NCBI RefSeq assembly: GCF_030655415.1
Contig: NZ_JAURVN010000011.1
Location: 72,024 to 136,023, forward strand
DNA from: Herminiimonas sp.
GTDB taxonomy: Bacteria > Pseudomonadota > Gammaproteobacteria > Burkholderiales > Burkholderiaceae
DNA: 64,000 nt
Direction: 5' to 3'
The notes under the pieces are model-generated. The model worked only from the letters and a program-made list of their open reading frames with translations, was not told where the DNA came from and made no database searches. Both the position numbers and the translations under genes were made by a program. This document shows, piece after piece, positions 29,510-48,453 of this stretch. Numbering within the stretch: the stretch's first letter is position 1; every line of letters starts with the position of its first letter.

Positions 29510-29800
29510 ATGTCAAATCCAACCAGCAATACCGCAACATCCGACGACGCTTTCACCCAAGAAGTGGCTAAATTGATTGTGCATGCGCTCAATCTTGATG
29601 TCGATCCGACCACGATCAGCCCGGATGATTCACTTTACGGCAGCGGCCTTGGCCTTGATTCAATTGACATCCTGGAAGTGGCATTAGTCGTGTCAAAAAA
29701 CTACGGCATTCAATTGCGCGCCGATCACGAAGATAACGAAAAAATCTTCAGCTCACTGCGCTCGCTGTCCGACTATATTGCTGCCAATAAAACGCAATAA
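29510..29800 (+). CDS. acyl carrier protein of the aryl polyene locus
   Basis: A 96-residue acyl carrier protein. The phosphopantetheine attachment site is GLGLDSIDILE with Ser51. Acidic helices before and after it are typical (PDDSLYGSG and ADHEDNEKIFSSL). It probably carries the aryl starter and growing polyene, corresponding to the ApeE/ApeF proteins of aryl polyene systems. It is the first gene of the plus-strand operon; the start (MSNPTSNTAT) is chosen because the upstream open frame is not ACP-like. It is the only acyl carrier gene seen in the locus, where two are usual. Confidence 0.88.
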   Translation: MSNPTSNTATSDDAFTQEVAKLIVHALNLDVDPTTISPDDSLYGSGLGLDSIDILEVALVVSKNYGIQLRADHEDNEKIFSSLRSLSDYIAANKTQ

Positions 29801-29805
29801 CTTGC

Positions 29806-31242
29806 ATGCCGCGCATTACTTGCGCTGACATCAAAGGATGCGTGCCGTTGACTTCAACTATTCCTCTTCTCAGTCATACCTCCCCTGACCGGATCGTCGC
29901 ATGGCGCGACGGCATTTCGGTCACGGCAGCGCAATTCCTGAGCGACGTCGAAAAACTGGCCACGCTTTTGCCAGCCAGTCGTCACGTCCTCAACGACTGC
30001 CATGACCGCTATCATTTTCTTGTCGCATTTTCGGCAATCCTAGTTTCAGGCAAGGTAAACCTGCTGCCCTCGACCCGCACGGCAGAAACCATACGCCAGC
30101 TGCTGAGCTTTGCCCCTGATGCCGTGTGTCTGACCGATCAAGCGCATTGCGCAATCGACTTGCCGCGGACGGCCTATCCGACATCCTCTTTTTTCGGCCT
30201 GGTCGGTAGCAGCGGCATTCATACCTTCCAGATTCCGCAGATCGAGAACGACCGTCTGGTGGCCTACGTATTTACGTCGGGCTCGACCGGATTACCGATA
30301 GCGCATAGGAAAACCTGGGCAACGCTGGTGCGCAATGTGCAGATGGAAGCCGTTCAACTTGGCCTGCAGCCCGACGTTAACTATAGTGTGGTCGGAACAG
30401 TGCCGGCGCAGCACATGTATGGTTTCGAGTCGACCGTATTGATGCCATTAGTGAACGGTTTTTCGCTGACCAGCGCACTCTCGTTTTACCCGGCCGATAT
30501 CTGCAGTTCGCTAGAACAAGTTCCCGAGCCGCGCGTGCTGGTGACGACGCCGGTGCATCTACGTTCGCTGATCGGCTCTGAATTACCGCTGCCAAAAATA
30601 GAAGTTATGGTGTCGGCCACAGCGCCGCTGTCGCCACAACTGGCTCTGCAGGCAGAGCAAGCCTTCCACGCTCCCTTGCAGGAAATTTACGGCAGTACCG
30701 AGACCGGACAGATTGCGAGCAGACAACCGTCGCACTCTCCAGAATGGATGCTGTTTCCAAGCTTGAAAATGACGCGTTGTCCACATCAGGATGCAAGCGA
30801 CGAGCGTATGTGGATTTCCGGCGGCCACGTGGAAACACCGATGCCTATGAACGACGCCATCGAAATGACTGGTGATGGAACATTCCTGCTGCATGGCCGT
30901 ATCACCGACCTGATCAACATCGCCGGTAAACGCAGTTCGCTTGCATATTTGAATCATCACTTGAATGCGATTCCGGGCGTAGTTGATGGCGCGTTCTTCA
31001 TGCCACCAGAAAAAAGCACAGGCGAAGTGACTCGACTCAAGGCTTTTGTCGTCGCCCCCACACTAGCGGTCAGCGATCTGATCGACGCCTTGCGCCAAAA
31101 GATCGATCCTGCCTTTTTGCCAAGGCCTTTGTACAAGGTCGACAGCCTGCCCCGTAACGCAACCGGCAAATTGCCGCAGGCGTCACTTGCTGAATTACTG
31201 CATACGCTGGCGGCTGCGCCATGTGATACCTCGCACAGTTGA
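29806..31242 (+). CDS. AMP-dependent aryl-ACP ligase (ApeH-like)
   Basis: Adenylating enzyme expected to activate a hydroxybenzoate starter and load it on the ACP. The A3 P-loop-like motif is FTSGSTGLPIAHRKTW near residue 153-168. Later motifs include EIYGSTETGQIASRQP and the catalytic Lys in PRNATGKLPQ near the C-terminus. The 478 residues fit a stand-alone ligase. It lies 5 nt after the ACP gene and 11 nt before the first dehydratase. By position and family it corresponds to ApeH of aryl polyene loci. A fatty-acyl substrate is possible but less likely given the chorismatase nearby. Confidence 0.85.
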   Translation: MPRITCADIKGCVPLTSTIPLLSHTSPDRIVAWRDGISVTAAQFLSDVEKLATLLPASRHVLNDCHDRYHFLVAFSAILVSGKVNLLPSTRTAETIRQLLSFAPDAVCLTDQAHCAIDLPRTAYPTSSFFGLVGSSGIHTFQIPQIENDRLVAYVFTSGSTGLPIAHRKTWATLVRNVQMEAVQLGLQPDVNYSVVGTVPAQHMYGFESTVLMPLVNGFSLTSALSFYPADICSSLEQVPEPRVLVTTPVHLRSLIGSELPLPKIEVMVSATAPLSPQLALQAEQAFHAPLQEIYGSTETGQIASRQPSHSPEWMLFPSLKMTRCPHQDASDERMWISGGHVETPMPMNDAIEMTGDGTFLLHGRITDLINIAGKRSSLAYLNHHLNAIPGVVDGAFFMPPEKSTGEVTRLKAFVVAPTLAVSDLIDALRQKIDPAFLPRPLYKVDSLPRNATGKLPQASLAELLHTLAAAPCDTSHS

Positions 31243-31253
31243 AGACACAATCC

Positions 31254-31544
31254 ATGACCACATTGTCGTTTCATATTCCTGCCGATCATCCGGCGTTTGC
31301 CGGGCATTTCCCCGGCATGCCGATTACCCCCGGCGTGGTTCTTCTCGACGAGGCTCTGCATGCCATAGCGGCAGACCGGCAGATGGACATGCAAAAATAC
31401 AAAATCAGCAGCGTCAAATTTCTCAGTCCGGTACTGCCGGATACACAACTGAGTCTGCATTACGACATCAATGCCAATGGCGGCATTCAATTCGATATCA
31501 AACAAGGTGAGCGCGTGGCGGTCACGGGAGTCTTCAATGCGTAA
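31254..31544 (+). CDS. hotdog-fold 3-hydroxyacyl-ACP dehydratase (ApeI-like)
   Basis: A 96-residue FabZ/FabA-type hotdog protein that removes water from the 3-hydroxyacyl-ACP during polyene elongation. The motif AGHFPGMPITPGVVLLDEAL holds the catalytic His. It lacks the usual second half residues of a self-sufficient FabZ, in keeping with aryl polyene systems where this small subunit (ApeI) pairs with a second dehydratase (ApeP); the second is encoded at 35314-35802. The ATG at 31254 follows the ligase stop by 11 nt, and its end overlaps the next gene by 8 nt. Confidence 0.83.
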   Translation: MTTLSFHIPADHPAFAGHFPGMPITPGVVLLDEALHAIAADRQMDMQKYKISSVKFLSPVLPDTQLSLHYDINANGGIQFDIKQGERVAVTGVFNA

Positions 31545-32118
31545 ATCAACTGGCCTGCATGGCCTGATCGTTGCACTTCTGCTGTCGTGCACATGCCTGG
31601 CCCATGCGGCCGACATCACGATGGAACAATTGATGACTGGCCTGGCGCAAGCCAAACCCGCCAAGGTTAATTTCACTGAGAAAAAGTACATCGCCACATT
31701 AGATCGTCCGATTGAATCATCCGGCGAAATGCTCTTTACCCCGCCTGACAAATTGGAGAAACGTACCTTCAAGCCAAAGCCGGAAGTGATGACACTGAAT
31801 CGAGACTCGGTAGTACTGGAGCGCGGCAAAAACAAGTACGCGATGCAGCTCGGCGATTCACCGGAACTGGCAGCATTGATCGAAAGTATACGGGCGACGC
31901 TGGCCGGCGACCGCCGTACATTGGAACTGAACTTCGTTGTGGCGTTGCAGGGCACGCGTGAAAACTGGACCATGATGCTGACTCCGAGCAATCTGGATGC
32001 ACGTCAAAAGGTCAAACGGATTCGTCTGGCCGGCAACAACTTTGAAGTTCGCGAAATTGAAGTGCTGCAAGGCGATGGCGACCGCTCCGTGACTACCATC
32101 GAAAAAATCAAGCCATGA
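31537..32118 (+). CDS. LolA-like outer membrane lipoprotein carrier protein
   Basis: A periplasmic carrier of about 193 residues. The N-terminus is a signal peptide (MRKSTGLHGLIVALLLSCTC with cleavage near AHA-AD). The mature part matches the LolA/LolB beta-barrel fold used by aryl polyene loci: VNFTEKKYIATLDRPIESSG, GEMLFTPPDKLEKRTFKPKP and the C-terminal VKRIRLAGNNFEVREIEV. It probably shuttles the lipid-linked polyene across the periplasm. The start at 31537 is chosen because of the signal peptide; it overlaps the dehydratase by 8 nt and its stop overlaps the exporter ATG as ATGA. Confidence 0.82.
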   Translation: MRKSTGLHGLIVALLLSCTCLAHAADITMEQLMTGLAQAKPAKVNFTEKKYIATLDRPIESSGEMLFTPPDKLEKRTFKPKPEVMTLNRDSVVLERGKNKYAMQLGDSPELAALIESIRATLAGDRRTLELNFVVALQGTRENWTMMLTPSNLDARQKVKRIRLAGNNFEVREIEVLQGDGDRSVTTIEKIKP

Positions 32119-34589
32119 CGCAAACTGTGCAAGAGCTGCCAACGCCAAAACGCGCGTGGTCGGCAATCGGAATCTGGCTGGTGCTGGTATTGATCGGCAT
32201 CTTCGTTCTGTTCCGCTCAACATTTACCGCTGACCTTTCCGCCTTCCTGCCTAGTAATCCGACGCAGGAACAGCAACTGATGGTCGAGCAACTGCGCGAC
32301 GGCATGGTGTCACGCCTCATTTTGGTCGGCATCGAAGGTACCGATGCGCAAGGACAAGCTGCATTGTCGAAGTCGCTTGCGACGCGGATGCGCAGCAATG
32401 ATGAATTCATTTCAGTCAACAATGGCGAGCCGGTCAATCAAGACAAAGATCGCACCTATCTCTTCAACAACCGGTATTTATTGAGTCCTGCGGTTACACC
32501 AGAACGCTTTACCACCGAAGGTTTGCACGAAGCGCTGAGCGAGACGGTAGATCTGCTGGCCTCGCCCGCCGGACTGATAGTCAAAGACATCTTGCCGCAG
32601 GATCCGACCGGTGAACTGACGGCACTGATCGGACAGTTCAATGGCGGCCAGCAACCGCGAAAAATGCAAGGCGTATGGGTTGCAAAAGACGGCAATCGTG
32701 CTCTGCTGCTGGCGCAAACCCGCGCGCTCGGCTCCGATACCGATGGCCAGGAAGCCGCCATCAATCACATCAAAGAAAAATTCGAAGCAGCAAAAACAGA
32801 ACTCGCAGCAACACTGCCACAGGTGGCCAGCGCCAAACTGGTCATGACCGGCCCCGGCGTCTTTGGCGTCAATGCACGCAATACGATCACAACAGAAGCC
32901 GCAATGTTTTCCATCATCAGCGCGACGCTGATCATGGCCTTGCTGTTCATTGTCTATCGTTCAGGCGCAGCGGTTTTGCTTGGACTGGCACCTGTGCTCA
33001 GCGGCGTGCTGGCTGGCACAGTAGCGGTTAGTCTCGGCTTTGGCATGGTGCATGGATTGACGATGGGTTTCGGCACCACGCTGATAGGCGAGGCCATTGA
33101 TTATTCGATCTATCTGTTCATACAGTCTGGCAGCGCAAAGAACAGCGCAGACTGGGCGAAGAAATCATGGCCGACAATTCGGCTCGGTGTATTGACCTCG
33201 ATGGCCGGCTTCGGCTGCTTGTTGTTCTCAGGTTTTCCAGGACTGGCACAGCTCGGCCTGTACACCATCGCGGGTTTGACTTCCGCAGCCTTCGTCACCC
33301 GCTTCGTATTGCCGTCGCTGCTGCCGCGCAATTTCGTCGTGCGTGATCTGACACATATTGGCCTCGTCGTGCAAAAAGTACTGCATCAGTTGCAAAAGCT
33401 GCGCAAAGGATTTTTCATTATTGCGCTGGCCGCATGTGCCGTGCTTTGGGTCAATCGCGATCACCTGTGGGAGCCGGAGCTTGGCGCTTTGAGCCCTATC
33501 AGCAAAGTTGATATCGACCTTGATGAAAATCTGCGCAAGGATGTAGGCGCGCCAGACGTAAGCTACCTGATAGTCGTGAAGGGAAAAACGCTGGAAGAAG
33601 TCTTGCAGTCCACCGAAAAAGTCTCTACGCAACTCGATACCATGGTCAATGCCGGCACGCTGGCTGCATTTGAATCGCCTAGCCGCTACCTGCCGAGTCT
33701 GGCAACGCAGCAAGCTCGTCTGAATGCATTGCCGCCGACCGACGTTCTGCAGCAACGTCTGAATCAAGCAGTCGCTGGCCTGCCATTCCAGGCTACGTTG
33801 CTGGCACCGTTTGTCGCCTCCATTGATGAGCTGACGAAAGTCGCCAAACAACCGGACGAATTGAAGGCGCGACTGCTGACACGCAAGGATCTGGCCGGCA
33901 CCTCGATGGCACTGGCAACCGATTCGCTGCTGATCGAGAAGGACGGCGTTGTCAGTGGTCTGCTGCCACTGACGGCAGGTGGCGATCAGCCTCTTGATAT
34001 GGCACTGATCCAGACTGCGTTACAGAAATCGGGGGTGGAGCAAGCCTACTTCATTGATCTCAAAACCGAAACCGGCAAACTGTATAGCGGCTACATGCAG
34101 GAAGCCGTCATGCTGGCCTTGTGCGGATTGGTAGCAATGACGGTACTGCTTGGTTTCAATCTGCGCTCGCTTGCCGGACTGGCGCGCGTCATGGTGCCAC
34201 TGATCACTGCAGTGCTGACCGTTGCTGCGATTTTGTCGCTGACCGGCCAACGCATGACCATCCTGCATCTGGTCGGACTGTTGCTGATCGTCGCCGTGGG
34301 TTCCAATTACGCGCTGTTCTTTGCGCAGCCGGCAACGGTACTGGTAAAGGATCCTGTAACGGGTGTTGAAACCTCGGTGGCGCAAATCAAACCGACGACA
34401 CTGGCGTCACTGATCTTTGCCAATATCACCACCGTCATCGGCTTTGGTGTGCTCGGATTTTCATCCGTGCCGGTACTCAATGCGATTGGTATTACCGTCG
34501 GTATCGGCGTGATACTTGCGCTCGTCTTTTCCGCCACTTTTTCCAATAGCACGTATATCGCTGCTTCCACTGATTCGAAAGCGCCATGA
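32115..34589 (+). CDS. MMPL/RND-family exporter
   Basis: An 824-residue inner-membrane transporter of the RND/MMPL superfamily with two repeated halves of about six membrane segments. TM1 is AIGIWLVLVLIGIFVLFRST, and large periplasmic loops follow TM1 and TM7. The first-half TM bundle includes GFGTTLIGEAIDYSIYLFIQ with the family Gly-Asp-Tyr relay, and the second includes LVGLLLIVAVGSNYALFFAQ. In aryl polyene and xanthomonadin loci this protein is thought to move the pigment or its lipid form outwards, working with the LolA-like carrier encoded just before. Its ends overlap both neighbours by 4 nt. Confidence 0.87.
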   Translation: MTQTVQELPTPKRAWSAIGIWLVLVLIGIFVLFRSTFTADLSAFLPSNPTQEQQLMVEQLRDGMVSRLILVGIEGTDAQGQAALSKSLATRMRSNDEFISVNNGEPVNQDKDRTYLFNNRYLLSPAVTPERFTTEGLHEALSETVDLLASPAGLIVKDILPQDPTGELTALIGQFNGGQQPRKMQGVWVAKDGNRALLLAQTRALGSDTDGQEAAINHIKEKFEAAKTELAATLPQVASAKLVMTGPGVFGVNARNTITTEAAMFSIISATLIMALLFIVYRSGAAVLLGLAPVLSGVLAGTVAVSLGFGMVHGLTMGFGTTLIGEAIDYSIYLFIQSGSAKNSADWAKKSWPTIRLGVLTSMAGFGCLLFSGFPGLAQLGLYTIAGLTSAAFVTRFVLPSLLPRNFVVRDLTHIGLVVQKVLHQLQKLRKGFFIIALAACAVLWVNRDHLWEPELGALSPISKVDIDLDENLRKDVGAPDVSYLIVVKGKTLEEVLQSTEKVSTQLDTMVNAGTLAAFESPSRYLPSLATQQARLNALPPTDVLQQRLNQAVAGLPFQATLLAPFVASIDELTKVAKQPDELKARLLTRKDLAGTSMALATDSLLIEKDGVVSGLLPLTAGGDQPLDMALIQTALQKSGVEQAYFIDLKTETGKLYSGYMQEAVMLALCGLVAMTVLLGFNLRSLAGLARVMVPLITAVLTVAAILSLTGQRMTILHLVGLLLIVAVGSNYALFFAQPATVLVKDPVTGVETSVAQIKPTTLASLIFANITTVIGFGVLGFSSVPVLNAIGITVGIGVILALVFSATFSNSTYIAASTDSKAP

Positions 34590-35317
34590 GCAACGACGCG
34601 ATGAACCATCTTTTTACTGCAGCCTGCAGTCCTTACCGCCAAGCCGGTCGCTTCGCGTGGCATTTTGCACATGGCAAACTGAGTCGCGATCCGGTATTCA
34701 AGGGCATGCTCCAGCTGGGACTATTACCAAGCGGCCATCCTATCAAGGTGCTGGATATTGGTTGTGGACAAGGACTGCTGTCGTCATGGCTGCTGTCAGC
34801 CGAGGCGCAACATGCAAAAGGCGACTGGCCAATCGGCTGGCCCGCGCCACCAGTGATCACGCATGTGCATGGCATCGAATTAATGCCGCGGGATGTGGAG
34901 CGTGCCGAACGCGCATTACAGTCTGTGGCAGACCGCGCCACATTTGAAGTCGGCAATATGTGTACCGCCACTTTCGCGCCATCGGATGCGGTTGTCATCC
35001 TTGATGTGCTGCATTACGTGGACTTCCCGGCGCAAGATGACGTGCTGAAAAAAGTACATGCGTGCCTGTCACCAGACGGCGTGCTGTTACTGCGCGTCGG
35101 CGATGCTGCCGGTGGTTTGCCATTCAAGATCAGCAACTGGGTCGACAATGTCGTGACCTCGATACGCGGCCATAAAACACTGCCGACTTTTTGCCGGACC
35201 ATCGCTGACTGGCAACGTGATATCACGGCCATCGGCTTTGCCGTTCAAGCAATTCCGATGAACGTGGGAACGCCTTTCGCCAATATCCTGCTGGTCTGCA
35301 AAAAAGGCGCCGCGTGA
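34586..35317 (+). CDS. class I SAM-dependent methyltransferase of the pigment locus
   Basis: A 243-residue methyltransferase with SAM motif I VLDIGCGQGLLSSWLL near residue 54-69 and motif II/III region DAVVILDVLHYVDFP near 131-145. In aryl polyene loci a methyltransferase of this type methylates the aryl head group or its ring hydroxyl; that role is inferred from position here. Its ATG overlaps the exporter stop (ATGA), and its stop overlaps the GTG of the next gene (GTGA), so the operon is tightly coupled. Confidence 0.83.
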   Translation: MSNDAMNHLFTAACSPYRQAGRFAWHFAHGKLSRDPVFKGMLQLGLLPSGHPIKVLDIGCGQGLLSSWLLSAEAQHAKGDWPIGWPAPPVITHVHGIELMPRDVERAERALQSVADRATFEVGNMCTATFAPSDAVVILDVLHYVDFPAQDDVLKKVHACLSPDGVLLLRVGDAAGGLPFKISNWVDNVVTSIRGHKTLPTFCRTIADWQRDITAIGFAVQAIPMNVGTPFANILLVCKKGAA

Positions 35318-35802
35318 ACATAGATCGCAACTGGATCCTTGCGCATATCCCGCATCAGGGCAGCATGTGCCTGCTGGATCATGTCGAATCATGGGACAGT
35401 GAACGCATGAGCGCGATTGCGCACAGCCATTTACAGATGGACAATCCCTTGCGCGCACATGACCGACTCGGTGCAGCCAACGGTATTGAATACGCTGCTC
35501 AGGCAATGGCCGTACACAGCGCATTGCTGGCAACGTCGCAGCCCGACATGCAAGACATGGCGCGTCCGACTGCAGGATTTCTTGCCAGCGTGCGTAGTAC
35601 GGTATTACATGTAGCTAGGCTGGATGACATCGCCGAGGCGTTGCAGATTGAAGTGACCTGCACGCATAGCGAGCCAAATCTCATTTTGTATCAGTTTGCA
35701 GTGCGCGGCCTCGACACTCAGCAGCCTTTGCTGGACGGTCGCGCCACCATCATCATCGACGCATCGCTGGTCACCAACAACACAGGAGCAAACCCATCAT
35801 GA
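35314..35802 (+). CDS. second hotdog-fold dehydratase (ApeP-like)
   Basis: A 162-residue hotdog-fold protein matching the 3-hydroxyacyl-ACP dehydratase partner of aryl polyene systems. Conserved features are LAHIPHQGSMCLLDHV near residues 9-24 with the catalytic-type His and IEYAAQAMAVHSAL near residue 51-64. The GTG start is fixed by the GTGA overlap with the upstream methyltransferase and by homology starting right there. It overlaps the ketoreductase start as ATGA. It probably forms a heteromer with the small ApeI-like subunit. Confidence 0.83.
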   Translation: MNIDRNWILAHIPHQGSMCLLDHVESWDSERMSAIAHSHLQMDNPLRAHDRLGAANGIEYAAQAMAVHSALLATSQPDMQDMARPTAGFLASVRSTVLHVARLDDIAEALQIEVTCTHSEPNLILYQFAVRGLDTQQPLLDGRATIIIDASLVTNNTGANPS

Positions 35803-36518
35803 AACGCGCACTGGTAACGGGTGGCAGCGGCGGCATCGGCGCTGCAATCTGCAAGCGCTTGGCCGCAGACGAATTGCATGTGATCGTGCATGCCAATCGC
35901 GGACGCGACAAGGCCGAGCTGATTTGCAAAGAAATTATTGCTGCAGGCGGCAGTGCGGAAGTGGCGGTATTCGATATCACAGATGCTGACGCGACCAAAA
36001 TTGCGTTGGAAGCATTGTTGGAATCAGGTCCTATCCAGGTACTGGTGAACAATGCCGGCATCCATTCCGACGCGGTCTTTCCGGGCATGACAAGTACTCA
36101 GTGGCATGATGTGATTGATGTATCGCTGCATGGTTTTTTCAATGTGACGCAACCGCTGACGATGCCGATGATACGTACCCGCTGGGGCCGCATCATTAAT
36201 GTCTCGTCGATTGCTGCGGTGACCGGCAATCGCGGCCAGGTTAATTATTCGGCGGCCAAGGGTGCGCTGCATTCCGCAACAAAATCACTGGCACTCGAAC
36301 TGGCCAGTCGCGGCATCACAGTCAATGCGGTGGCACCGGGCATCATCGCCACAGGCATGATAGAAGAAGCGTTTGACGACAAGGCGATCCAGACCATCGT
36401 GCCGATGAAACGCGCGGGAAAACCGGAAGAAGTCGCAGACCTGATCGGCTTCCTGGCGTCACCCAACTCCGCTTATATTTCCGGCCAGATCATCTCGATC
36501 AACGGCGGCATGATCTAG
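35799..36518 (+). CDS. 3-ketoacyl-ACP reductase (ApeQ-like, FabG family)
   Basis: Short-chain dehydrogenase of 239 residues reducing the 3-keto intermediates of polyene elongation with NADPH. The cofactor motif is TGGSGGIGAAI near residues 7-17; the NNAG motif is VLVNNAGIHSDA, and the catalytic Ser and Tyr-x-x-x-Lys are in NVSSIAAVTG and YSAAKGAL. C-terminal ISGQIISINGGMI is the FabG end. It is the last gene of the plus-strand operon, overlapping the dehydratase by 4 nt, and is followed by a strong bidirectional terminator. Confidence 0.9.
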   Translation: MKRALVTGGSGGIGAAICKRLAADELHVIVHANRGRDKAELICKEIIAAGGSAEVAVFDITDADATKIALEALLESGPIQVLVNNAGIHSDAVFPGMTSTQWHDVIDVSLHGFFNVTQPLTMPMIRTRWGRIINVSSIAAVTGNRGQVNYSAAKGALHSATKSLALELASRGITVNAVAPGIIATGMIEEAFDDKAIQTIVPMKRAGKPEEVADLIGFLASPNSAYISGQIISINGGMI

Positions 36519-36538
36519 CTTCTTATTAAGTACAAATG

Positions 36539-36567
36539 AAAAGGGCCGCTGATGCGGCCCTTTTTTT
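36539..36567 (+). terminator. bidirectional terminator after the ketoreductase
   Basis: GGGCCGC (36543-36549), loop TGAT, GCGGCCC (36554-36560), then T7. A4 lies on the other side, so it can also end the convergent flavoenzyme gene, whose stop codon overlaps the T-run. Confidence 0.88.
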
Positions 36568-37894: not shown

Positions 37895-37959
37895 AAAATA
37901 TCCATCCAAAGCGGGTTAGTGAAACAAATAACTATTTTATAAATAGCAGAATTGCTGGG

Positions 37960-39829: not shown

Positions 39830-39853
39830 ACCTTCCTTCTTGCTTCAGATGTA

Positions 39854-39890: not shown

Positions 39891-39914
39891 GCGCTTTTAA
39901 AACGCACATTTCAA

Positions 39915-40538
39915 TTATTGAAAGCCGCGTTCAGTTTTGTCGTATTCAATTACGGTCAGGCCGCTGCCATCATTCACGCCTATCGCATACGCACCCGCGC
40001 CACCGGAGAAAGTCAGGCGACCCACGCCCTTGTAATAAAAGATCGTTTCATAGCGGCCCGATCCAAAATAGAAAGGGATCCAGGCTTTGCCTGTGATGTG
40101 TGAATTGGTATCGGTCGGGGTACCGGCAATACTGATGACTTCGTTCAAGCCCATGCCGATCTTGAGACCACTGAATTTGCCTTTGACAGGCGTGCCGATA
40201 ATCTGGCCGGACCAGTCGTTGATACCTTTGACTTCTTGCGGTTTGCCGTTTGAAGCAGTGGCTGGTGCTGGAGTTGGTGCCGATGCAGCTTCCTGCTGTG
40301 CTTTTTTCTCGGCTGCTGCAGCTTGCTGCGCTGCCTTGCGATCTTCCGCATCTTTTTTGGCTTGTGCCTTTGGACCAAGTTTTTTCTGTGGCGCAGCCGG
40401 CTTGGCTGGCGCCGCTACAACTGGCGCTGGGGCGGGAGTCGCCTTGACTTCGGGTGCTGGCGCGGCTTCCTTCTTCTGCATGGTTTCACAACCGGCAAGC
40501 AACACTATGACGGCCGCAACCGTGATCAGTTTTTTCAT
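39915..40538 (-). CDS. lipoprotein with low-complexity linker and BamE/SmpA-like C-terminus
   Basis: The start MKKLITVAAVIVLLAGCETM has a clear lipobox (LAGC, Cys17) and GGGGAGA upstream, so ATG 40538 is chosen over the earlier GTG-type frame. Residues about 20-115 are an Ala/Lys/Pro/Gln-rich linker. The final ~95 residues contain LKIGMGLNEVISIAGTPTD, resembling the BamE/SmpA motif (Gly-Met, then Val, then Gly-x-Pro) and probably fold as such a domain. It starts 65 nt after the chain-length factor on the same strand, so may be the last gene of the pigment operon. Function unknown. Confidence 0.75.
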   Translation of the reverse strand: MKKLITVAAVIVLLAGCETMQKKEAAPAPEVKATPAPAPVVAAPAKPAAPQKKLGPKAQAKKDAEDRKAAQQAAAAEKKAQQEAASAPTPAPATASNGKPQEVKGINDWSGQIIGTPVKGKFSGLKIGMGLNEVISIAGTPTDTNSHITGKAWIPFYFGSGRYETIFYYKGVGRLTFSGGAGAYAIGVNDGSGLTVIEYDKTERGFQ

Positions 40539-40603
40539 TATTCTCTCCCCTTCAATCATTTAAAAATTGGCATGTGGTCGGCATGAATACGCTGCCAGCA
40601 TGC

Positions 40604-41410
40604 TCAAGCTGCGACAAATTTTACGCGAAGCGACTGTTGATTGACATATTCCAGATAAATATCCGCAGCCGCGGCCTGCTCCGGAAGTTGCGCCAAGACC
40701 TGCATCAACGGTAACCCGCGCGCAGCGGGAATGCCGACACGAACGTTTTCCAGCTCGCTGCTTTCCATCGTGGTCGAAGGTGTTTTTTCCAGACTGACAT
40801 CGATGGCGGTGATGCTGCCTTGTGTCACATCAGGCGTCAGCAAAATGCTGATGGCGAACTGGTCAGCGACAGGGCGCACACCATGAATAGGTTCCGGATA
40901 AGGCGTATCGTAGACCACCAGCAAAACCGGCCGCTTTTCGACAGAGCACTGCACTGCGGCTTCCAGCAAACCAACGGCAAAGCCCGCGTCATAGGCACAC
41001 AGGCTGGTTGATGGCAGCATCGCGCCGCTCGCAATCCCCCAATAACCCGACGGTGCGTTATGCACGGAATTATGAAAACGTGTCGGCGAAATCATGCGAT
41101 CGCTGCTGGCAAGTGCTTCGCAGATGAGATGACAGTTTTCACCGTCGCCACCAGACGAGCAAAATACTGTCGTCATGCTGCTCGGATCGATGCCGGCGGC
41201 AGCCAACGCTTCGAGTCCGCTGGCCAGCGCGATCTTGACGCCGATACCGACGCGACGGCGTTCGGCACTAGGCAATACATTCAATACAGGATTGACAGTG
41301 CGCGCAGGCTGATAGGCAACTTCCTTGCGCAAAATGCTGCGCCATTCCGGCCAGTTGTTGGCACCAGGACCGATTGCACCTATCGCTTCGATATAGACCT
41401 TGACGCTCAT
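40604..41410 (-). CDS. chain-length factor, partial ketosynthase (ApeC-like)
   Basis: A 268-residue protein related to the N-terminal part of beta-ketoacyl synthases, matching the chain-length-factor partner (ApeC) of aryl polyene systems. It covers segments like NSVHNAPSGYWGIASGAML and TSLCAYDAGFAVGLLEA, then stops where the two catalytic histidine regions of a full ketosynthase should be. A Cys at 138 occurs where the ketosynthase Cys would align, which is unusual for a non-catalytic partner. It overlaps the ketosynthase gene by 4 nt, so the two subunits are probably made in equal amounts. Confidence 0.84.
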   Translation of the reverse strand: MSVKVYIEAIGAIGPGANNWPEWRSILRKEVAYQPARTVNPVLNVLPSAERRRVGIGVKIALASGLEALAAAGIDPSSMTTVFCSSGGDGENCHLICEALASSDRMISPTRFHNSVHNAPSGYWGIASGAMLPSTSLCAYDAGFAVGLLEAAVQCSVEKRPVLLVVYDTPYPEPIHGVRPVADQFAISILLTPDVTQGSITAIDVSLEKTPSTTMESSELENVRVGIPAARGLPLMQVLAQLPEQAAAADIYLEYVNQQSLRVKFVAA

Positions 41411-42597
41411 GACACGATTCCCAACACCAGGCTGCAGTTGGAACCGCCAAAGCCGAATGAATTATTGACTGCGTAATGAATGGAGCCGGCTCGATTGGCC
41501 AGCACGTAATCGACATCCAGCGCGCTATCCACCTTGGTAGTGTTGATCCCTGCTGGCGTCACGCCGTGCTGCATCGCCATCACGCAAATGATGGCCTCGA
41601 CGCCGCCCGCTGCACCCAGCGTATGGCCGGTTGCGCCCTTGGTAGAGCTGCACGCGGTGCTATTGCCGAATACAGCGTGAACCGCTTTACCCTCTGCCGC
41701 ATCATTACTTGGTGTAGCAGTGCCATGCAGATTGATATAGCCAATCTGATCCGGCTGAATCCCGGCCGCAGCAAGCGCCGCCTTCATGGCCATTTGTGCG
41801 CCCATGCCTTCCGGATGCGGCGATGACATGTGATGCGCATCGCTGGATTCGCCGACGCCGTGCAACAGGATCGTACCGGCAGCCGACAACGATGTTGGCT
41901 TGCTCAGCAAAACGAAGGCCGCGCCCTCAGCAATCGATATGCCATTGCGTCCTTCGCCATACGGTTGCGCTGGCGTCGGTGCCAGCAATTGCAGGGAATT
42001 GAAACCGTAAAGCGTCGTCAGACACAAGCTGTCCACACCACCCACGACCGCGGCATCGATCAATCCGGCTTCTATCATGCGAGCAGCATTGCCGAATACC
42101 TTGGCACTGGAAGAACATGCCGATGAAACCGTCAACGCCGGACCGGTCAGGCCAAGAAAGGCACTGACATAGGCTGCGACAGAATAAGTATTATGTGTTT
42201 CGGCGTAATGAAAATCGGCTGGCAGCGCGCCATCCTGCTGACGCTGTCGATATGCCAGCTCCGTCTGCAAGATGCCAGAGGTACTGGTGCCGAGAAAAAG
42301 ACCAACCCGATCCGAACCGTACTGTGCGATGGCATCGTTGACAGCATCGACAAAACCATCCTGCTGCAAGGCTAGATGGGCAAGGCGGTTATTACGGCAA
42401 TCGAATCTCGACAAGTTTTTCGGCAGGAGCACATCGTCCACGCCATCCACTTCGCCGATGAAAGTGGGCAAGTCGACTGTCTCGAAATCGCAAGGCTTTA
42501 ATCCTCCCTGCTGAGTCGATAATTTCTTCCAGTTAGCCTCCAGGCCCAAACCCAGGCAGGTGCTTAATGTGTATTTTTTTAGTTCAAGGGTTTGCAT
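41407..42597 (-). CDS. beta-ketoacyl-ACP synthase (ApeO-like)
   Basis: A 396-residue ketosynthase with the complete catalytic triad: Cys161 in TVSSACSSSA, His291 in NLHGTATPSND, and His325 in KGATGHTLGAAG. NNSFGFGGSN near the C-terminus is also typical. It should carry out the repeated condensations of polyene growth together with the chain-length factor encoded next to it. It is the only full ketosynthase in the locus. The start is an ATG. It lies 64 nt after the polysaccharide deacetylase stop on the same strand. Confidence 0.9.
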   Translation of the reverse strand: MQTLELKKYTLSTCLGLGLEANWKKLSTQQGGLKPCDFETVDLPTFIGEVDGVDDVLLPKNLSRFDCRNNRLAHLALQQDGFVDAVNDAIAQYGSDRVGLFLGTSTSGILQTELAYRQRQQDGALPADFHYAETHNTYSVAAYVSAFLGLTGPALTVSSACSSSAKVFGNAARMIEAGLIDAAVVGGVDSLCLTTLYGFNSLQLLAPTPAQPYGEGRNGISIAEGAAFVLLSKPTSLSAAGTILLHGVGESSDAHHMSSPHPEGMGAQMAMKAALAAAGIQPDQIGYINLHGTATPSNDAAEGKAVHAVFGNSTACSSTKGATGHTLGAAGGVEAIICVMAMQHGVTPAGINTTKVDSALDVDYVLANRAGSIHYAVNNSFGFGGSNCSLVLGIVS

Positions 42598-42661
42598 GGG
42601 ATCTTATCGATTGCATGTAATTACTCAATAATTCAACGAACTCAAATTTCGGCAGCGCGAT

Positions 42662-43492
42662 TCAACCGCGCATACCTTCTTCCAGCCTAACGAACTGCAG
42701 ATTCTGTTTCGTGTATGCCGCGACCAGTTGCGGCAGCACATCCAGAATCACAGGACGGCCATCACTACCTGGTGCCGCATTGCCATCATGGAGCAGCAAA
42801 ATATCCCCGGGACCGGCATTTTTCAGCAAACGCTGCGCCACTTTCTGCGCATCACCTACCCGCGTATCGAATCCACGACGGGTCCAGCTGACTAGTCGAA
42901 GGTCGAGCTGGTGTAACACTGGATCAAGAAAAGGATTTCGTAAACCGGCAGGTGCGCGGAAAAATAGCGGCTTTCTTCCTGTTACCTCTTCAATGACCTG
43001 TTGAGCGGCAGCAAGTTCCTTTTTGATGCCATTCAATCCGAGGATGGAAAAATAATGCCGGTGCACCATGCTGTGATTTTCGATGTGATGACCTTCCGCG
43101 ATCATTCTGCGCGCCAGTTCTGGATGATTTTTGACCTTGGTGGCAATGCAGAAGAACGTGGCCTTTATGCCATGCTCTTTCAATACATCCAGCACCTGCG
43201 GCGTGATCTCTGGATCAGGGCCATCGTCGATGGTCAGTGCAATCTCGCGGCGCCCACCGGGCAGGCGCAGGGTATTCGGTCCCAGCAAAGTACTCTTGGG
43301 CCATAGTCCGGCTGCCGTTAACACAACGTGATTAGCAATCAGCGCTGCAATACAAACGAAAACCGTTTCTGGCCACAACAATGTCGACGCAGCTGCGCCT
43401 ACATGAATGGCAGCGGATGCCTTGATAAAACTGCTGGGCTGCCACTTTGCAGGCCTGATCATGGTTGCATCGTTCACGTTATCTCTATTCAA
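42662..43492 (-). CDS. polysaccharide deacetylase (NodB-type) of the pigment operon
   Basis: A NodB-domain carbohydrate esterase family 4 enzyme of about 276 residues. Motif 1 is LTIDDGPDPEITP, motif 2 is HIENHSMVHRHYF with His-x-x-x-His metal ligands, and RAPAGLRNP and DILLLHDG supply later motifs. An N-terminal hydrophobic segment (residues about 25-60) suggests membrane attachment. The start is uncertain: TTG at 43492 overlaps the upstream stop as TTGA, and an ATG lies at 43462. A deacetylase is an additional tailoring gene whose substrate here is unknown; deacylation of a sugar on the glycosylated polyene is possible. Confidence 0.83.
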   Translation of the reverse strand: MNRDNVNDATMIRPAKWQPSSFIKASAAIHVGAAASTLLWPETVFVCIAALIANHVVLTAAGLWPKSTLLGPNTLRLPGGRREIALTIDDGPDPEITPQVLDVLKEHGIKATFFCIATKVKNHPELARRMIAEGHHIENHSMVHRHYFSILGLNGIKKELAAAQQVIEEVTGRKPLFFRAPAGLRNPFLDPVLHQLDLRLVSWTRRGFDTRVGDAQKVAQRLLKNAGPGDILLLHDGNAAPGSDGRPVILDVLPQLVAAYTKQNLQFVRLEEGMRG

Positions 43493-45135
43493 TAGGCTGC
43501 GTTGGAGAACAGCATAGGCGCCTTGCCGCCATATGGCGCCTGCAACATGTCATCGAGTACGCGCTTCAATTCCACGCCCTCTGCCGACGTGGCAAGGCCA
43601 TGATGCTCGCCGCATGCGCGTGCAAGCATTGCATCCGCCAGTTGCTGCAACAAGAGGAAATTATCTGCCATGCGCTGCGCGAAACCGGCGTCATCCAGCT
43701 GATCCTTCAAGCCGCGATTCAATTCGGAAAACCAGTCGATCTCGGTCTGGTCCAGCAGCTGTGACGGATTGCGCTTCTGGCTGACCTTGCCCCATGCACG
43801 GAAAAAATTCTGCATGGCGATATTGATTTTTTGAACTTGCATCAGCGGCTTGTGCAGACGTCCCATGGTCGACACGTCGACTAGACGATTCTGGATAAAC
43901 AACGGGCACATGATGCCCCAGTAATAAGCGTAATCCCACGACACCTTGTGCGGCAATACTTCAGGATCACCAAACAGCGCGTATTGATCTACATAGACCG
44001 ACAGCGTGGTCTCATACATCGAAAAGAAAATTTGCTGATAAAAATCGGCATACATCGCCACCGGCGCCTTGTTGCGGTCATGCGCAATCAGTTCGGTGAT
44101 GTAAGTATTACCTATCGCGATGAAGTCGCTACCGGGCGAATAGAACGGATCAAGGAACAGGCCTGCTTCGCCAGTCAATGCCCAGCGGTTATCGCCCGAG
44201 AAGACCTGCTTGCAACCATATGAAAAGCGTTTGAAGAAGGCGAAATCCTGCAGCTTGTCGCGCTCACCTTCCAGATGATCGAACAGGCGCGGCTGATGAA
44301 TCTTCAGCCAGTCCATCGCCTTTTCGAAGGTATTCATGTTTTCAACTGGATGCATGGTGGCATCTGCCACGATGCCGACCGAATGCGAGCCGGATGCCAG
44401 TGGAATCAACCATACCCAGTAGCCTTCACCGACCAGGTGGTTGGTGGACAGCCAGCGATTCGGCGGATTGCAGGATTCCAACCAGTCCTTGTCTTCAGAC
44501 CAATCGTGAATGTCGATGCGGCTGCCGATACGGAACCAGACCGCGCCCGCGTTATGGCCATTTTCTTGGGCCAGATCGAGTTTGCGTTTGATAAGTCCGG
44601 CGCGACCCGATGCATCAATCAACCAGCGCGCACTCGCATGCACCGTCTGTTTGTCGGATTCGTAATTGACCTGATGCAAGGCATCGCCTTCTCCGATCGA
44701 AAACTGGCGAATCACGGCGTCGTCGACAAACTGTACGCCTGCATCCAAAGCCAGATTCGCCAACTTGTTTTCAAAAATGCCGCGATCAATCTGATACGTA
44801 AACGTCGGCAGGATTTTGCTGCCGCCGAGTTCTGTGACCTTGTCGAAATCGCGACGTCCTTCGGAAAAGAAAAAACGGAAGCCGAATTTTTTCAGCTGCT
44901 CGGTTTGCATGTGCTCCTTGAGGCCGAGCACAGTATCAAAATAATGGGCGCCAATTTCGACCGATGATTCACCGACCTTGTGCGCTGCCAGTGGCACAGG
45001 ATGGGAACGACGCTCGATGACGAGAATCGACAGATCGCTAAAGCGCTTCTTGAGTTGCAAGGACAGCGTCAGACCAGCCAATCCCCCACCCATGATGACG
45101 ACATCATACTGCCGGGAATTGGTGATATCAGTCAT
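43489..45135 (-). CDS. flavin-dependent halogenase-like FAD oxidoreductase 2
   Basis: A 548-residue FAD enzyme of the halogenase-like superfamily. The FAD motif MGGGLAGLTL starts near residue 15, the hallmark W-x-W-x-I-P is present as WVWLIP at 240-245, and Lys83 in LKKFGFRF aligns with the active-site Lys by context. The C-terminal part (about 340-548) is longer than in enzyme 1. The ATG at 45135 has AAGGA 8 nt upstream and overlaps the acyltransferase stop as ATGA. It lies within the minus-strand operon. Halogenation or ring hydroxylation of the polyene head are the best guesses. Confidence 0.83.
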   Translation of the reverse strand: MTDITNSRQYDVVIMGGGLAGLTLSLQLKKRFSDLSILVIERRSHPVPLAAHKVGESSVEIGAHYFDTVLGLKEHMQTEQLKKFGFRFFFSEGRRDFDKVTELGGSKILPTFTYQIDRGIFENKLANLALDAGVQFVDDAVIRQFSIGEGDALHQVNYESDKQTVHASARWLIDASGRAGLIKRKLDLAQENGHNAGAVWFRIGSRIDIHDWSEDKDWLESCNPPNRWLSTNHLVGEGYWVWLIPLASGSHSVGIVADATMHPVENMNTFEKAMDWLKIHQPRLFDHLEGERDKLQDFAFFKRFSYGCKQVFSGDNRWALTGEAGLFLDPFYSPGSDFIAIGNTYITELIAHDRNKAPVAMYADFYQQIFFSMYETTLSVYVDQYALFGDPEVLPHKVSWDYAYYWGIMCPLFIQNRLVDVSTMGRLHKPLMQVQKINIAMQNFFRAWGKVSQKRNPSQLLDQTEIDWFSELNRGLKDQLDDAGFAQRMADNFLLLQQLADAMLARACGEHHGLATSAEGVELKRVLDDMLQAPYGGKAPMLFSNAAY

Positions 45136-46043
45136 CGTGCATTTCCTTGCCAAAAATCGTAAAAATTGAACCAGTTATACGGTGCGAGGCGGGCAAAATG
45201 TTCCAGCCGACCTACATACGCAATGATCGCGGCATCAATTGCCTGCTGCGAATTGCGACGCTCACCGTTTTCGTCATCGCTGAAATCGGCAATTTTCTCA
45301 ATATTGATTTCATATCGATTACCGCCGCGATACATACCGACCATCAGGAACACCGGCCTGCGCATCATGGCGGCCATCCGGAACGGCCCCACTGCAAAAT
45401 ATGCGGTTTCACCCAAGAAGGTAATCGGGAAGTTACGTTCATGACCAAGCGTACGATCGGCCAGAATGCCGATGATGCCGCCTTCTGCCAACCTGTCCTT
45501 GACCGTCAACATGGCACTTAAGTTTCCCAAAGGGACAATTTCCTGCTGTGCTTGCGGATTAATCGCAGCCATTAGCGCACCGATCTTGCGCGCATTTTCT
45601 TCATACATCAGCAATACAAGTTTGAGCTCTTCCCGCTTGCGGGACACCAACCTGACCGCCTCAAAACTACCCATGTGAGCGCCCATGACAAAAACTCCTC
45701 CTGCACGCTCTGCATCGGTCTGGTCTTCGTAATCATCGCGCAACACTTGGATGTCGAATAAATCAGCGCGATTGAGTAGAAAATAAACACGATCCAGCAG
45801 AACACCCGCGAAAACAAGGAAGTGTTTGAATATTTCGTGCCAGCGCGGCTTGCGGCCAAGCACACGCGATAGATACGCTGCCGACGCCTTGCGCGAATCG
45901 GCGACCACAATAAAAAAATACAGTGAAATCGGATACAGCAACAGGCGCGTCGCACGTCTGCCAAACAAGGTTGCCATCTTCACCATGAAGCGCAGCAGCC
46001 CGATGGAGCCGCGCTCCTTCTTTTCAGTCCAGTCCTGCGACAT
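45132..46043 (-). CDS. LpxL/HtrB-type lysophospholipid acyltransferase
   Basis: A ~303-residue membrane acyltransferase of the lipid A lauroyl/myristoyl type. The motif HMGSFE near residue 120 (His-x4-Glu) is the catalytic feature, followed by the conserved GIIGILADRTLG and VFLMVGMYR. An N-terminal hydrophobic segment anchors it. It may acylate the polyene or a glycolipid carrier in the inner membrane. An upstream ATG at 46070 is possible; 46043 is preferred because AGGG lies upstream. It is upstream of flavoenzyme 2 and downstream of the ApeG-like gene, by 72 nt. Confidence 0.82.
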   Translation of the reverse strand: MSQDWTEKKERGSIGLLRFMVKMATLFGRRATRLLLYPISLYFFIVVADSRKASAAYLSRVLGRKPRWHEIFKHFLVFAGVLLDRVYFLLNRADLFDIQVLRDDYEDQTDAERAGGVFVMGAHMGSFEAVRLVSRKREELKLVLLMYEENARKIGALMAAINPQAQQEIVPLGNLSAMLTVKDRLAEGGIIGILADRTLGHERNFPITFLGETAYFAVGPFRMAAMMRRPVFLMVGMYRGGNRYEINIEKIADFSDDENGERRNSQQAIDAAIIAYVGRLEHFARLAPYNWFNFYDFWQGNAR

Positions 46044-46115
46044 AAAATTTGTTTTCCCTTGTAGTGACATTTTTACTGATATTTTCAAGCGCCGGATTAT
46101 ATAGACGAGAAGGTT

Positions 46116-46784
46116 TCAGACCTTGTTTTTGCTATTGAAATAAGCGGACACGCTTTCCTTGATCGTCGCATGCTTGAAATCGGGATTGACCCGTTTCCTG
46201 CAGAAATATTCTCCGACAAACATCAGGATAACCAGCGGCCAGTTCAGAATATTGGCAAATACCGACCATGTTTCGATCGACGCCACATAAAAAATCAGCA
46301 ACGAAACCAGCAACTGCATGGCGAAGAAAATGGCCCATGCAGCAGTTACGGTACGCGTATAGCGCACCACATCATCCGGCATGTCTGGATGTATCGTACG
46401 AGCCAGAGTAGTAATGATTGGTGTACGTCCCACAAGCAACGTCTGCGCAAAAAACCAGCACAGCATCGTATTGCAGGCGATATGCTGAATCAGATAAATC
46501 CAGTCCAGCCGTACCAGCAGCGTCGACCATAATGCGATCGTGATGCACGTCAGCACCACACCTACCGTCAGTCCTGCCACCAGCCTCACCATGGCATTGC
46601 TGATGACTTGCTTCAGCGCCGCAGCCGTGCCCCAAGCGGCGATACCAATAATCGGCACCACCAGCATGAAGACAGCAATCTGCCGCCAGATGCTTTGTGC
46701 GTCCTGCACCATCAGGGCGACGTGACTCAGCGATACATAGACGATGATTGCGGCAACGAATAACAGTGTTTTTACAAACGGCAT
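46116..46784 (-). CDS. polytopic membrane protein of the aryl polyene locus (COG4648-like)
   Basis: A 222-residue inner-membrane protein with about six hydrophobic segments (FVKTLLFVAAIIVYVSLSHV, then FMLVVPIIGIAAWGTAAAL, and later ones). A soluble tail has YFCRKRVNPDF and DHATIKES-like charged residues. The family is found in aryl polyene loci (ApeG-type) and has no known function. It lies between the GT2 gene (85 nt) and the acyltransferase (72 nt) on the same strand. Confidence 0.75.
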   Translation of the reverse strand: MPFVKTLLFVAAIIVYVSLSHVALMVQDAQSIWRQIAVFMLVVPIIGIAAWGTAAALKQVISNAMVRLVAGLTVGVVLTCITIALWSTLLVRLDWIYLIQHIACNTMLCWFFAQTLLVGRTPIITTLARTIHPDMPDDVVRYTRTVTAAWAIFFAMQLLVSLLIFYVASIETWSVFANILNWPLVILMFVGEYFCRKRVNPDFKHATIKESVSAYFNSKNKV

Positions 46785-46869
46785 GGCTACTTCGCTTTAC
46801 AAAATCATCGTTGTTGGTGAGCAGCAAAAACCTGCGTGAAAAACTGTTTGATGGCAGTTCGGCACGGGA

Positions 46870-47628
46870 TCATCGCGCAGTCAGTTTGCGCGCAAGCAGA
46901 ATCGGCAGCCGAACAAGAAAACCAAAAAATAGCCGTGTATGCATCCATGTCAGCAGCTTGTTGTCGCGCCAGTAGTTGAAGTGGGAGACGCCACCTTCAT
47001 CAGCATTAAGGTACTTGACCTTGGCCGGCACATTGATGGGCTTGACGCCATACCAGCATAGGCGCACCACTGCTTCCGGATCGAAATCAAAACGTCGCAT
47101 CCAGTGATGCGAACGCATGATGTCCACCAACGGTCCGATCGGGTAGACGCGAAAGCCAAACAACGAATCGCCTATGCCAGCCCAGCAGGTTTCCAGATTG
47201 GCCCACCAGTTCGAAATCTTGCGTCCCTTAACCCGCAAGCTGGGTGCGCTGGCATCGAATACCGGTACGCCGAGCACCATCGCTGCAGGACTCGCGATCG
47301 ATTTTTCCATGAAGAGCGGAATCATTGTCGCGTCATGCTGGCCATCCGAATCCATCGTCAGAATATGCGTGTAACCCTGCTGTGCGGCCAGCTCCATCCC
47401 GCGCAAAACTGCCGCGCCTTTGCCGCCATTCTTCGGCAACAACACGACATGCAAACCGTCATCCTGCTCTGCCATACGCTGCAATTCAGCGGCAGATCCG
47501 TCGGTACTACCATCGACGACGACCCACACCGGATTCCACTGCTGCCTGGCCGACTGCACGGTTGCATAAACGGTACTGCCCGGGTTGTAGCTCGGGATCA
47601 GCACCAGATGCGTTGAAGAAACTTGCAT
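46870..47628 (-). CDS. family 2 glycosyltransferase of the pigment operon
   Basis: A 252-residue GT-A fold glycosyltransferase. The nucleotide-sugar site is seen in VLIPSYNPGSTVYATVQSA, VVDGSTDGSAAEL and the metal-binding LTMDSDGQHDATM, about residues 90-102. It is a single domain with one weak hydrophobic stretch near the end. In aryl polyene loci GT2 and PlsC-type proteins occur together, where they are proposed to join the polyene to a glycolipid carrier. It starts 21 nt after the acyltransferase gene. Confidence 0.85.
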   Translation of the reverse strand: MQVSSTHLVLIPSYNPGSTVYATVQSARQQWNPVWVVVDGSTDGSAAELQRMAEQDDGLHVVLLPKNGGKGAAVLRGMELAAQQGYTHILTMDSDGQHDATMIPLFMEKSIASPAAMVLGVPVFDASAPSLRVKGRKISNWWANLETCWAGIGDSLFGFRVYPIGPLVDIMRSHHWMRRFDFDPEAVVRLCWYGVKPINVPAKVKYLNADEGGVSHFNYWRDNKLLTWMHTRLFFGFLVRLPILLARKLTAR

Positions 47629-47649
47629 GAAGAAAAATCCTGAAAATGA

Positions 47650-48453
47650 TTAATGTTGCGCTTCAATCGATGCGCAGCAATTGGGTTCGGTGCTTGCAGG
47701 TTGTCGCGCGGTAGACAACTCTTGCTCAAAATATTCCTGCATCTCGGCGATCAGGTTTTTGACGTTCGATGTCGGGGAAAAACGTCGCCCGACGCGCACG
47801 CGAAAATGGACAGGAAATTCCGGCACCCGATAAATGGGCCAGCCCTTGCCTAAAAATCCGGAATCGGATTCGATCAATATTGTCTGAACATCGGAGCCGG
47901 TTCGCTTGGCGATCACCGCAACTGTTCCCTGGAATTCATTGACCGTTGCATTACGTGTACGCGTCCCTTCCGGAAACAGTAGCAACTGGCTGCCGATACT
48001 CAGTTCTTGTCCTGCGATATTCACGATATCGCGTATCGATTTATTCGGAATGTAACCGGCCATTTTTGCGCCATGCCCAAATAACACGTTCTTCAGAACC
48101 TGCTCTTTCATGATGCACACCACATTGGACAGACGTGACGTAATCAACAAAGCGTCCAGCAGCGAGGGATGATTACAGGCGAGGATGATGCCGCGGTCGT
48201 TCAGCAAGGCATCAATTTCGGAAAGATCCAGATGAAGGATATTCAATGACTGCAAGACACTGAAATACATGCGAAACGTATGTGTAATCGCATTGCGTGC
48301 ATTCTGCTTGCGCTGATCAGACGGCAAGACCAGTGAATACAGAAGCAGTCCGATCGAACCGGCAATCATGACGGCGCCCAGCAGCAACAGTCCAAACAGA
48401 AGGATCAGGAAATTATGCGCATTCTGAAGTCGTTTTTTTAACAGGTGCATCAT
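47650..48453 (-). CDS. PlsC-type 1-acylglycerol-3-phosphate-like acyltransferase
   Basis: A 267-residue acyltransferase with the His-x4-Asp motif NHPSLLD at 94-100 and the glycerol-phosphate motif FPEGTRTRN near 160-168. A strong N-terminal membrane segment (FLILLFGLLLLGAVMIAGSI) anchors it. It is the first gene of the minus-strand operon and its family is regular in aryl polyene loci, where it is proposed to acylate the carrier or the final product. The ATG codon is followed by a second Met. Confidence 0.85.
   Translation of the reverse strand: MMHLLKKRLQNAHNFLILLFGLLLLGAVMIAGSIGLLLYSLVLPSDQRKQNARNAITHTFRMYFSVLQSLNILHLDLSEIDALLNDRGIILACNHPSLLDALLITSRLSNVVCIMKEQVLKNVLFGHGAKMAGYIPNKSIRDIVNIAGQELSIGSQLLLFPEGTRTRNATVNEFQGTVAVIAKRTGSDVQTILIESDSGFLGKGWPIYRVPEFPVHFRVRVGRRFSPTSNVKNLIAEMQEYFEQELSTARQPASTEPNCCASIEAQH

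Follow-up and report, generated by a model that had tools for sequence, protein, structure and literature searches.

What pigment does a run of 20 linked genes in Herminiimonas sp. encode, and is its tailoring out of the ordinary? The genes lie at 29.4-48.5 kb of a 64,000-nucleotide stretch of contig NZ_JAURVN010000011.1 (the window, meaning the whole stretch analyzed), between queF and ptsN, and a first-pass annotation had read them as a complete aryl-polyene or xanthomonadin-like locus with unusual tailoring. Family matches and synteny bear out the first part of that reading: we are highly confident that an Oxalobacteraceae (Herminiimonas-like) bacterium here carries a full xanthomonadin-type aryl-polyene locus, whose pigment would start from 3-hydroxybenzoate (3-HBA). 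The pigment is probably O-methylated, and its halogenation, most likely by hal2, one of two flavin-dependent-halogenase-like proteins, is a fair prediction. The idea of unusual tailoring we reject for most of the genes named, which have precedents in print and in genomes; the locus is a fairly ordinary case of a known type of cluster for a protective pigment.

The core and tailoring genes named in the annotation were recovered at the coordinates given, most of them as Pfam or NCBIfam family matches, and the methyltransferase and the ApeG-like protein, which the annotation had missed, come in addition to them. The ape letters used below for E. coli open reading frames (ORFs), such as ApeD, ApeG and ApeJ, are given by position and are those we take to apply. 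The genes are as follows, with E-values after the families and percentages for amino acid identity.

29510..29800, + strand: acyl carrier protein (ACP); PF00550 (1.5e-6), NCBIfam NF006617 above cut-off; ORF open from 29426
29806..31242, + strand: aryl AMP-ligase; PF00501 (3.6e-20); 41% to the ligase of three Lysobacter-family loci
31239..31544, + strand: 3-hydroxyacyl-ACP dehydratase 1 (ApeI/FabZ type); PF07977 and PF22818 (ApeI-like); first ATG at 31254
31537..32118, + strand: LolA-like periplasmic carrier; PF19574 (7.9e-24)
32115..34589, + strand: MMPL/RND exporter; PF03176 (1.2e-12); 24% to the E. coli ape exporter
34586..35317, + strand: S-adenosylmethionine methyltransferase, proposed ring O-methyltransferase; PF13649 (2.9e-11)
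35314..35802, + strand: dehydratase 2 (ApeP-like); 38-41% to its counterparts in the three Lysobacter-family loci; assigned by position and homology
35799..36518, + strand: FabG-type ketoreductase (KR); NF004200 above cut-off
36566..37909, - strand: hal1, flavin-dependent-halogenase-like, at the XanB1 place; PF04820 (4.8e-36); Met at 37894
37960..38715, - strand: lipobox alpha/beta hydrolase; Pfam matches under cut-off
38834..39829, + strand: chorismatase, FkbO/Hyg5 type (putatively of the Hyg5/XanB2 kind); PF21168 (6.7e-36)
39915..40559, - strand: lipoprotein, OsmE/BamE-like by a weak assignment; partial OsmE match
40604..41410, - strand: half-length chain-length-factor (CLF)-like protein, 268 aa; PF13723 (Ketoacyl-synt_2, 3.9e-29)
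41407..42597, - strand: ketosynthase (KS), 396 aa; NF006618 above cut-off
42662..43492, - strand: NodB-type polysaccharide deacetylase; PF01522 (8.8e-33); Met at 43462
43489..45153, - strand: hal2, flavin-dependent-halogenase-like, at the place of Xanthomonas gene H; Pfam Trp_halogenase; Met at 45135
45132..46088, - strand: LpxL-type acyltransferase, matching the second part of the ApeJ-place ORF; PF03279 (2.6e-7); Met at 46070
46116..46784, - strand: ApeG-like membrane protein; 29% to the E. coli ORF at the ApeG place (5.5e-12)
46870..47628, - strand: GT2 glycosyltransferase, matching the first part of the ApeJ-place ORF; PF00535 (3.7e-20); 39% to the E. coli ORF
47650..48453, - strand: PlsC-type acyltransferase (ApeD-like); PF01553 (8.9e-14); 31% to the E. 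coli ORF at the ApeD place

ACP, aryl ligase, KR, both dehydratases, LolA, MMPL and the acyltransferases are thus all present, dehydratase 2 (no match in Pfam or NCBIfam) by position and homology only. Gene identity, order and orthology can be read directly from the sequence, and the catalytic residues are intact where checked. His23 of dehydratase 1 is kept in 8/8 orthologs, Ser117 and His229 of the lipobox hydrolase in 12/12, and Asp89, Asp90, His140 and His144 of the deacetylase in 28/28 relatives. The Cys-His-His KS, which adjoins the half-length CLF-like protein, keeps Cys161 and His291 in 43/43 relatives and His325 in 42/42. The CLF motif that we examined is other than the published Gln (Q166 of Lysobacter ORF16) and is not conserved. 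Regarding the chorismatase, a scan of genome contigs gave at least 583 confirmed relatives, of which the best 80 loci were kept; each spans at most about 21 kb and often less, so that gene counts among these 80 loci, here and below, are lower bounds. Cys316 and Glu323 are present in all 80 relatives and align with those of 5ag3, while FkbO (4bps) has Ala at the Cys position; the enzyme would be of the 3-HBA-forming kind (Hyg5/XanB2).

From this gene set we infer each reaction and product feature as follows. The chorismatase would supply 3-HBA, which the ligase would load onto the ACP; the KS and the half-length CLF would extend it with malonyl units, and the KR and the two dehydratases would turn the product into a conjugated chain. 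The methyltransferase would O-methylate the ring, and hal2, perhaps hal1 too, would halogenate the ring or the chain. The GT2, LpxL-type and PlsC-type enzymes would fix the polyene acid to a lipid or sugar-lipid anchor, perhaps trimmed by the deacetylase, and the ApeG-like protein, MMPL and LolA would carry the pigment to the outer membrane, where it would protect against light and oxidation.

The arrangement is shared by related bacteria. Among the matches listed, the closest named chorismatases and hal2 proteins come from Herminiimonas, Oxalicibacterium and other Oxalobacteraceae. All 20 genes occur in the same order in three loci (L099 from UBA4003, L100 from genome G453 and L003 from Oxalicibacterium faecigallinarum), and 19 of the 20 in L101 (O. 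flavum, same genome as L005), which is without the OsmE-like gene only. The flanks ilvA-queF and ptsN-hprK are the same in relatives where the stretches extend far enough, and the position of the locus is common to the Herminiimonas/Oxalicibacterium relatives. Further afield, the chorismatase was found at E 1e-30 in 66 of 369 genomes of a class-level draw, centre included. Among the 80 chorismatase loci, the window deacetylase was matched in at least 30, the methyltransferase in at least 15, the lipobox hydrolase in at least 12 and the OsmE-like protein in at least 3.

More distant loci were found in three Lysobacter-family genomes (G1284, G1317 and G1157), in each of which 16 of the 20 window proteins (chorismatase, hal1 and hal2 among them) were matched at E 0.01 and lie within about 20 kb; the weakest of these matches, at E 0.005, was that of the ApeG-like protein to G1317. 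The methyltransferase, deacetylase, hydrolase and OsmE-like lipoprotein gave no match at this threshold in the three genomes. The gene order in these loci, which differs from that of the window, is KS-CLF-GT2-hal2 ... KR-dehydratase 2-MMPL-LolA-LpxL-dehydratase 1-PlsC-membrane protein-ACP-hal1-chorismatase-ligase. The published legend of the Xanthomonas cluster, by locus tag, reads H (halogenase), biosynthesis protein, secreted protein, acyltransferase and dehydratase, followed by acyltransferase, membrane protein, ACP, XanB1 (reductase/halogenase), XanB2 and AMP-ligase, with the exporter tag out of series and KS/CLF unlabelled (PMC3838355). The order in the three genomes agrees with this legend. 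As far as the legend goes, the window shares with Xanthomonas the chorismatase, two halogenase-like genes, ACP, ligase, dehydratase, acyltransferases, exporter and membrane protein (PMC3838355), and with the three genomes, in addition, KS, CLF, GT2, KR, LolA and MMPL. Our hal2 is 56-57% identical to the gene at the H place and hal1 49-50% to that at the XanB1 place, values that refer to the Lysobacter-family loci and not to named Xanthomonas sequences. In G1284 the ORF tested downstream of the ligase is a cytochrome bd oxidase subunit II, as opposed to the dipeptidyl peptidase of the Xanthomonas legend; hence G1284 need not be a Xanthomonas.

The yellow-pigment locus of Lysobacter enzymogenes OH11 resembles the window in its KS with a half-length CLF, 3-HBA starter, LolA, KR and ACP, with ORFs 5 (chorismatase), 6 (ACP), 10 (LolA), 13 (KR), 15 (glycosyltransferase), 16 (CLF) and 17 (KS) among those named (PMC3691225). 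Genome G847 has a locus (L157) whose gene order agrees with these seven ORFs, for which reason we call its family, to which G1284, G1317 and G1157 also belong, Lysobacter-like; neither hal1 nor hal2 was found in the G847 genome.

With the published arc clusters of Azoarcus sp. BH72, the window shares the chorismatase, a halogenase-annotated gene, a methyltransferase (arcM), a polysaccharide deacetylase (arcN), LolA, exporter, glycosyl transferase, acyltransferases, KS and an N-terminal-KS protein; the arc system differs in being split over two loci and linked to dar genes, in having one halogenase in its table and in its halogen-free product (PMC3949708). According to these lists, the annotation's view that the added genes are not the standard set fails for the chorismatase, the two halogenase-like genes and the deacetylase, all of which appear in xanthomonadin or arcuflavin tables (PMC3838355, PMC3949708); the chorismatase and both halogenase-like genes, though not the deacetylase, also occur in the Lysobacter-family genomes. 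What remains outside the known lists is the lipoprotein hydrolase and the OsmE/BamE-like lipoprotein, and for these two the annotation's view is upheld. The likeness of the latter protein to BamE is weak: the OsmE match is limited to residues 7-32, under the NCBIfam cut-off, and 2 of the 120 relatives listed are named BamE by their source.

Twelve of the 20 window proteins match the ape locus of E. coli CFT073, which gave no match for the chorismatase, the halogenases, the deacetylase, the methyltransferase, dehydratase 2, the hydrolase or the OsmE-like protein. That locus uses a 4-hydroxybenzoate starter from UbiC and has two ACPs, three KS-type genes and a thioesterase (PMC8253772). The pigment locus has one ACP and one full KS as against two ACPs, a third KS (ApeR) and ApeK, and no thioesterase family was matched among its 20 proteins. 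The GT2 and the LpxL-type enzyme match the same E. coli ORF, the one at the glycosyltransferase/acyltransferase ApeJ place. Since the GT2 matches part of this ORF, its presence alone is no sign of a glycosylated pigment, and the annotation's 'glycosylated' becomes a weak suggestion; the role proposed for ApeJ is attachment to a membrane anchor (PMC8253772).

Does the locus halogenate? The motifs published for halogenases are GxGxxG, a catalytic Lys and WxWxIP (PMC5945002). In hal1, GxGxxG and Lys are present in 49/49 covered sequences and WxWxIP in 50/50; in hal2, all three are invariant across 31 aligned sequences, hal2 included. The two types differ in distribution. Orthologs of hal1 (50-91% identity) occur in at least 51 of the 80 chorismatase loci, and in the chorismatase genomes of the class draw, centre excluded, in 26/65 at E 1e-100 and 33/65 at E 1e-10. 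Around the Oxalicibacterium genome G001, hal2 orthologs are rare (at E 1e-60, 3/300 genomes of the order and 9/392 of the family, centre included); in the Lysobacter-like family to which G847 belongs, by contrast, 178/385 genomes had a match at E 1e-20. Within the 65 chorismatase genomes, hal2 gave 24 matches at E 1e-10 and 7 at E 1e-100; of these seven, four (G1047, G1032, G1033 and G937) have it at most about 25 kb from the chorismatase and three (G1042, G721 and G939) on a different contig. Among the 80 loci hal2 was matched in 43, with a median identity of 24%; these matches we take as cross-matches to hal1-type genes, save those in L001, L003 and L005 (70-88%).

Besides, the two types occur separately from each other. 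G1033 has hal2 near the chorismatase and hal1 as no more than a cross-hit, and in an Azoarcus other than BH72 (L080) a hal1 gene of 55% identity adjoins the chorismatase, while the genome gave no hal2 match at E 1e-40. Two genomes with aryl-polyene loci, G150 (L086/L087) and G308 (L104, L114), hold genes of both types, adjacent in G150 and on different contigs in G308; no chorismatase was found in either genome, so that another starter or source of 3-HBA would be needed. Because hal2 stands on the KS/CLF/GT2 side in loci built like the Xanthomonas cluster, whose pigments are reported to carry 0-2 bromine atoms (PMC3691225), it would be a better halogenase candidate than hal1. In L. enzymogenes the published account gives no halogenase gene in the locus and a mass spectrum without a bromine pattern (PMC3691225). 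The annotation's 'possibly halogenated' is therefore plausible, and unproven: the Azoarcus cluster with a chorismatase-side halogenase-like gene gives a halogen-free pigment (PMC3949708).

A natural loss of tailoring genes with the core intact, useful for comparison, is seen in Herminiimonas fonticola (L002). Its locus retains the core, chorismatase, hydrolase and deacetylase and has no hal1, hal2, methyltransferase, PlsC or OsmE-like gene. Beyond the locus, its genome gave no hal1 in a search positive in 8 of 9 genomes, and no hal2 in a search positive in 5 of 50 genomes of chorismatase loci (50 of the 80 were searched); the corresponding search for the methyltransferase ran without a positive control.

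Several points weigh against our interpretation. The chorismatase shares just 36% identity with its counterpart at the XanB2 place of the three Lysobacter-family loci, and its sequence says too little to tell a Hyg5-type from a XanB2-type enzyme. The case as a whole is one of sequence. Moreover, arcuflavin is C41H52O4 and halogen-free, though the BH72 table lists a halogenase beside the chorismatase (PMC3949708), a gene (arcA) that, from its position, would be of the hal1 type. One could hence argue for a pigment of the same class that carries no halogen, an arcuflavin- or Lysobacter-like polyene in whose synthesis hal1 and hal2 act as oxygenases or lie idle at the natural halide supply. We regard this as possible but less likely than not: both proteins retain the published motifs (PMC5945002), and hal2 is the ortholog of the KS/CLF/GT2-side gene in loci built like the Xanthomonas cluster, whose pigments are reported to carry 0-2 bromine atoms. 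The arcuflavin precedent also suggests that the polyene acid might be esterified to a dialkylresorcinol (arcuflavin or flexirubin type) and not borne on a sugar or glycerolipid, given a related gene set there and dar genes at a separate place in the genome (PMC3949708). Among the window ORFs scanned, which are not all of its ORFs, there was no dar gene or other resorcinol-forming synthase, and genes elsewhere lie outside this scope; we consider such an ester quite improbable.

That unrelated paralogues with scattered roles have come together by chance has a negligible probability. Several of the families are individually common, but the same genes stand in the same order between queF and ptsN in relatives, which places the grouping beyond chance, and the compact sets of 16 in three distant genomes contradict it as well. 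We keep to a xanthomonadin-type locus with hal2 as the candidate halogenase. A bolder, rather unlikely extension would see in it a xan set (H and XanB1) joined with an arc set (methyltransferase and deacetylase), making a halogenated methoxyaryl polyene with double tailoring, borne on a sugar anchor that has been deacetylated, with hal2 the true aryl or polyene halogenase and the widespread XanB1/hal1 type catalyzing a non-halogenating step.

Among the literature matches listed for Herminiimonas aryl polyenes and xanthomonadin halogenase clusters, no paper on the locus of this lineage appeared. The two-halogenase xanthomonadin gene set is now seen in an Oxalobacteraceae lineage, and it offers a testable assignment of the halogenating enzyme: the hal2 type accompanies loci like those of the makers of brominated pigments, in contrast to the cluster whose published table has only the chorismatase-side halogenase-like gene and whose pigment is halogen-free (PMC3949708).

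We also considered a mobile origin, which the viral, plasmid, neighbor-gene and base-composition checks do not support. None of the 24 stretches of viral contigs that fit the chorismatase patterns codes for a relative; plasmid matches were at most 36% identical for the chorismatase (18 records) and at most 44% for hal2 (2 records). Ordinary chromosomal genes make up the rest of the window ORFs scanned, and the G+C fraction in 2-kb bins is 0.49-0.56 across the window and 0.50-0.56 across the locus. No direct repeat family and one imperfect inverted pair were found. Promoter-like sites (13 vs 16.6 in shuffles) and terminator-like sites (29 vs 22.1, standard deviation 5.2) were not used as evidence. 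The two hal2 plasmid relatives (39-44%) are NZ_CP139977.1 (Janthinobacterium lividum) and NC_014533.1 (Gloeothece verrucosa); one record, cyanobacterial, holds four hal2-like places.

As for the plus-strand operon, overlaps of 4-8 nt, which the annotation had reported for its genes, occur at 6 of its 7 junctions with a TTG start for dehydratase 1 (31239) and the signal-peptide Met of LolA (31537), or at 5 of 7 if dehydratase 1 begins at its first ATG; the ACP and ligase genes do not overlap, being 5 nt apart. No LolB family match was found within the pigment locus, which has its LolA-like carrier; a LolB gene lies about 10 kb away (58323-58958). Elsewhere in the window, a dynamin-family protein (53333-55300) is encoded between MutY-like (HhH-GPD/NUDIX) and Fpg-like DNA-repair genes, and 22113-26108 encodes a 1332-aa protein that combines an FAD-linked oxidase with cysteine-rich (CCG), DUF3683 and DUF3400 domains.

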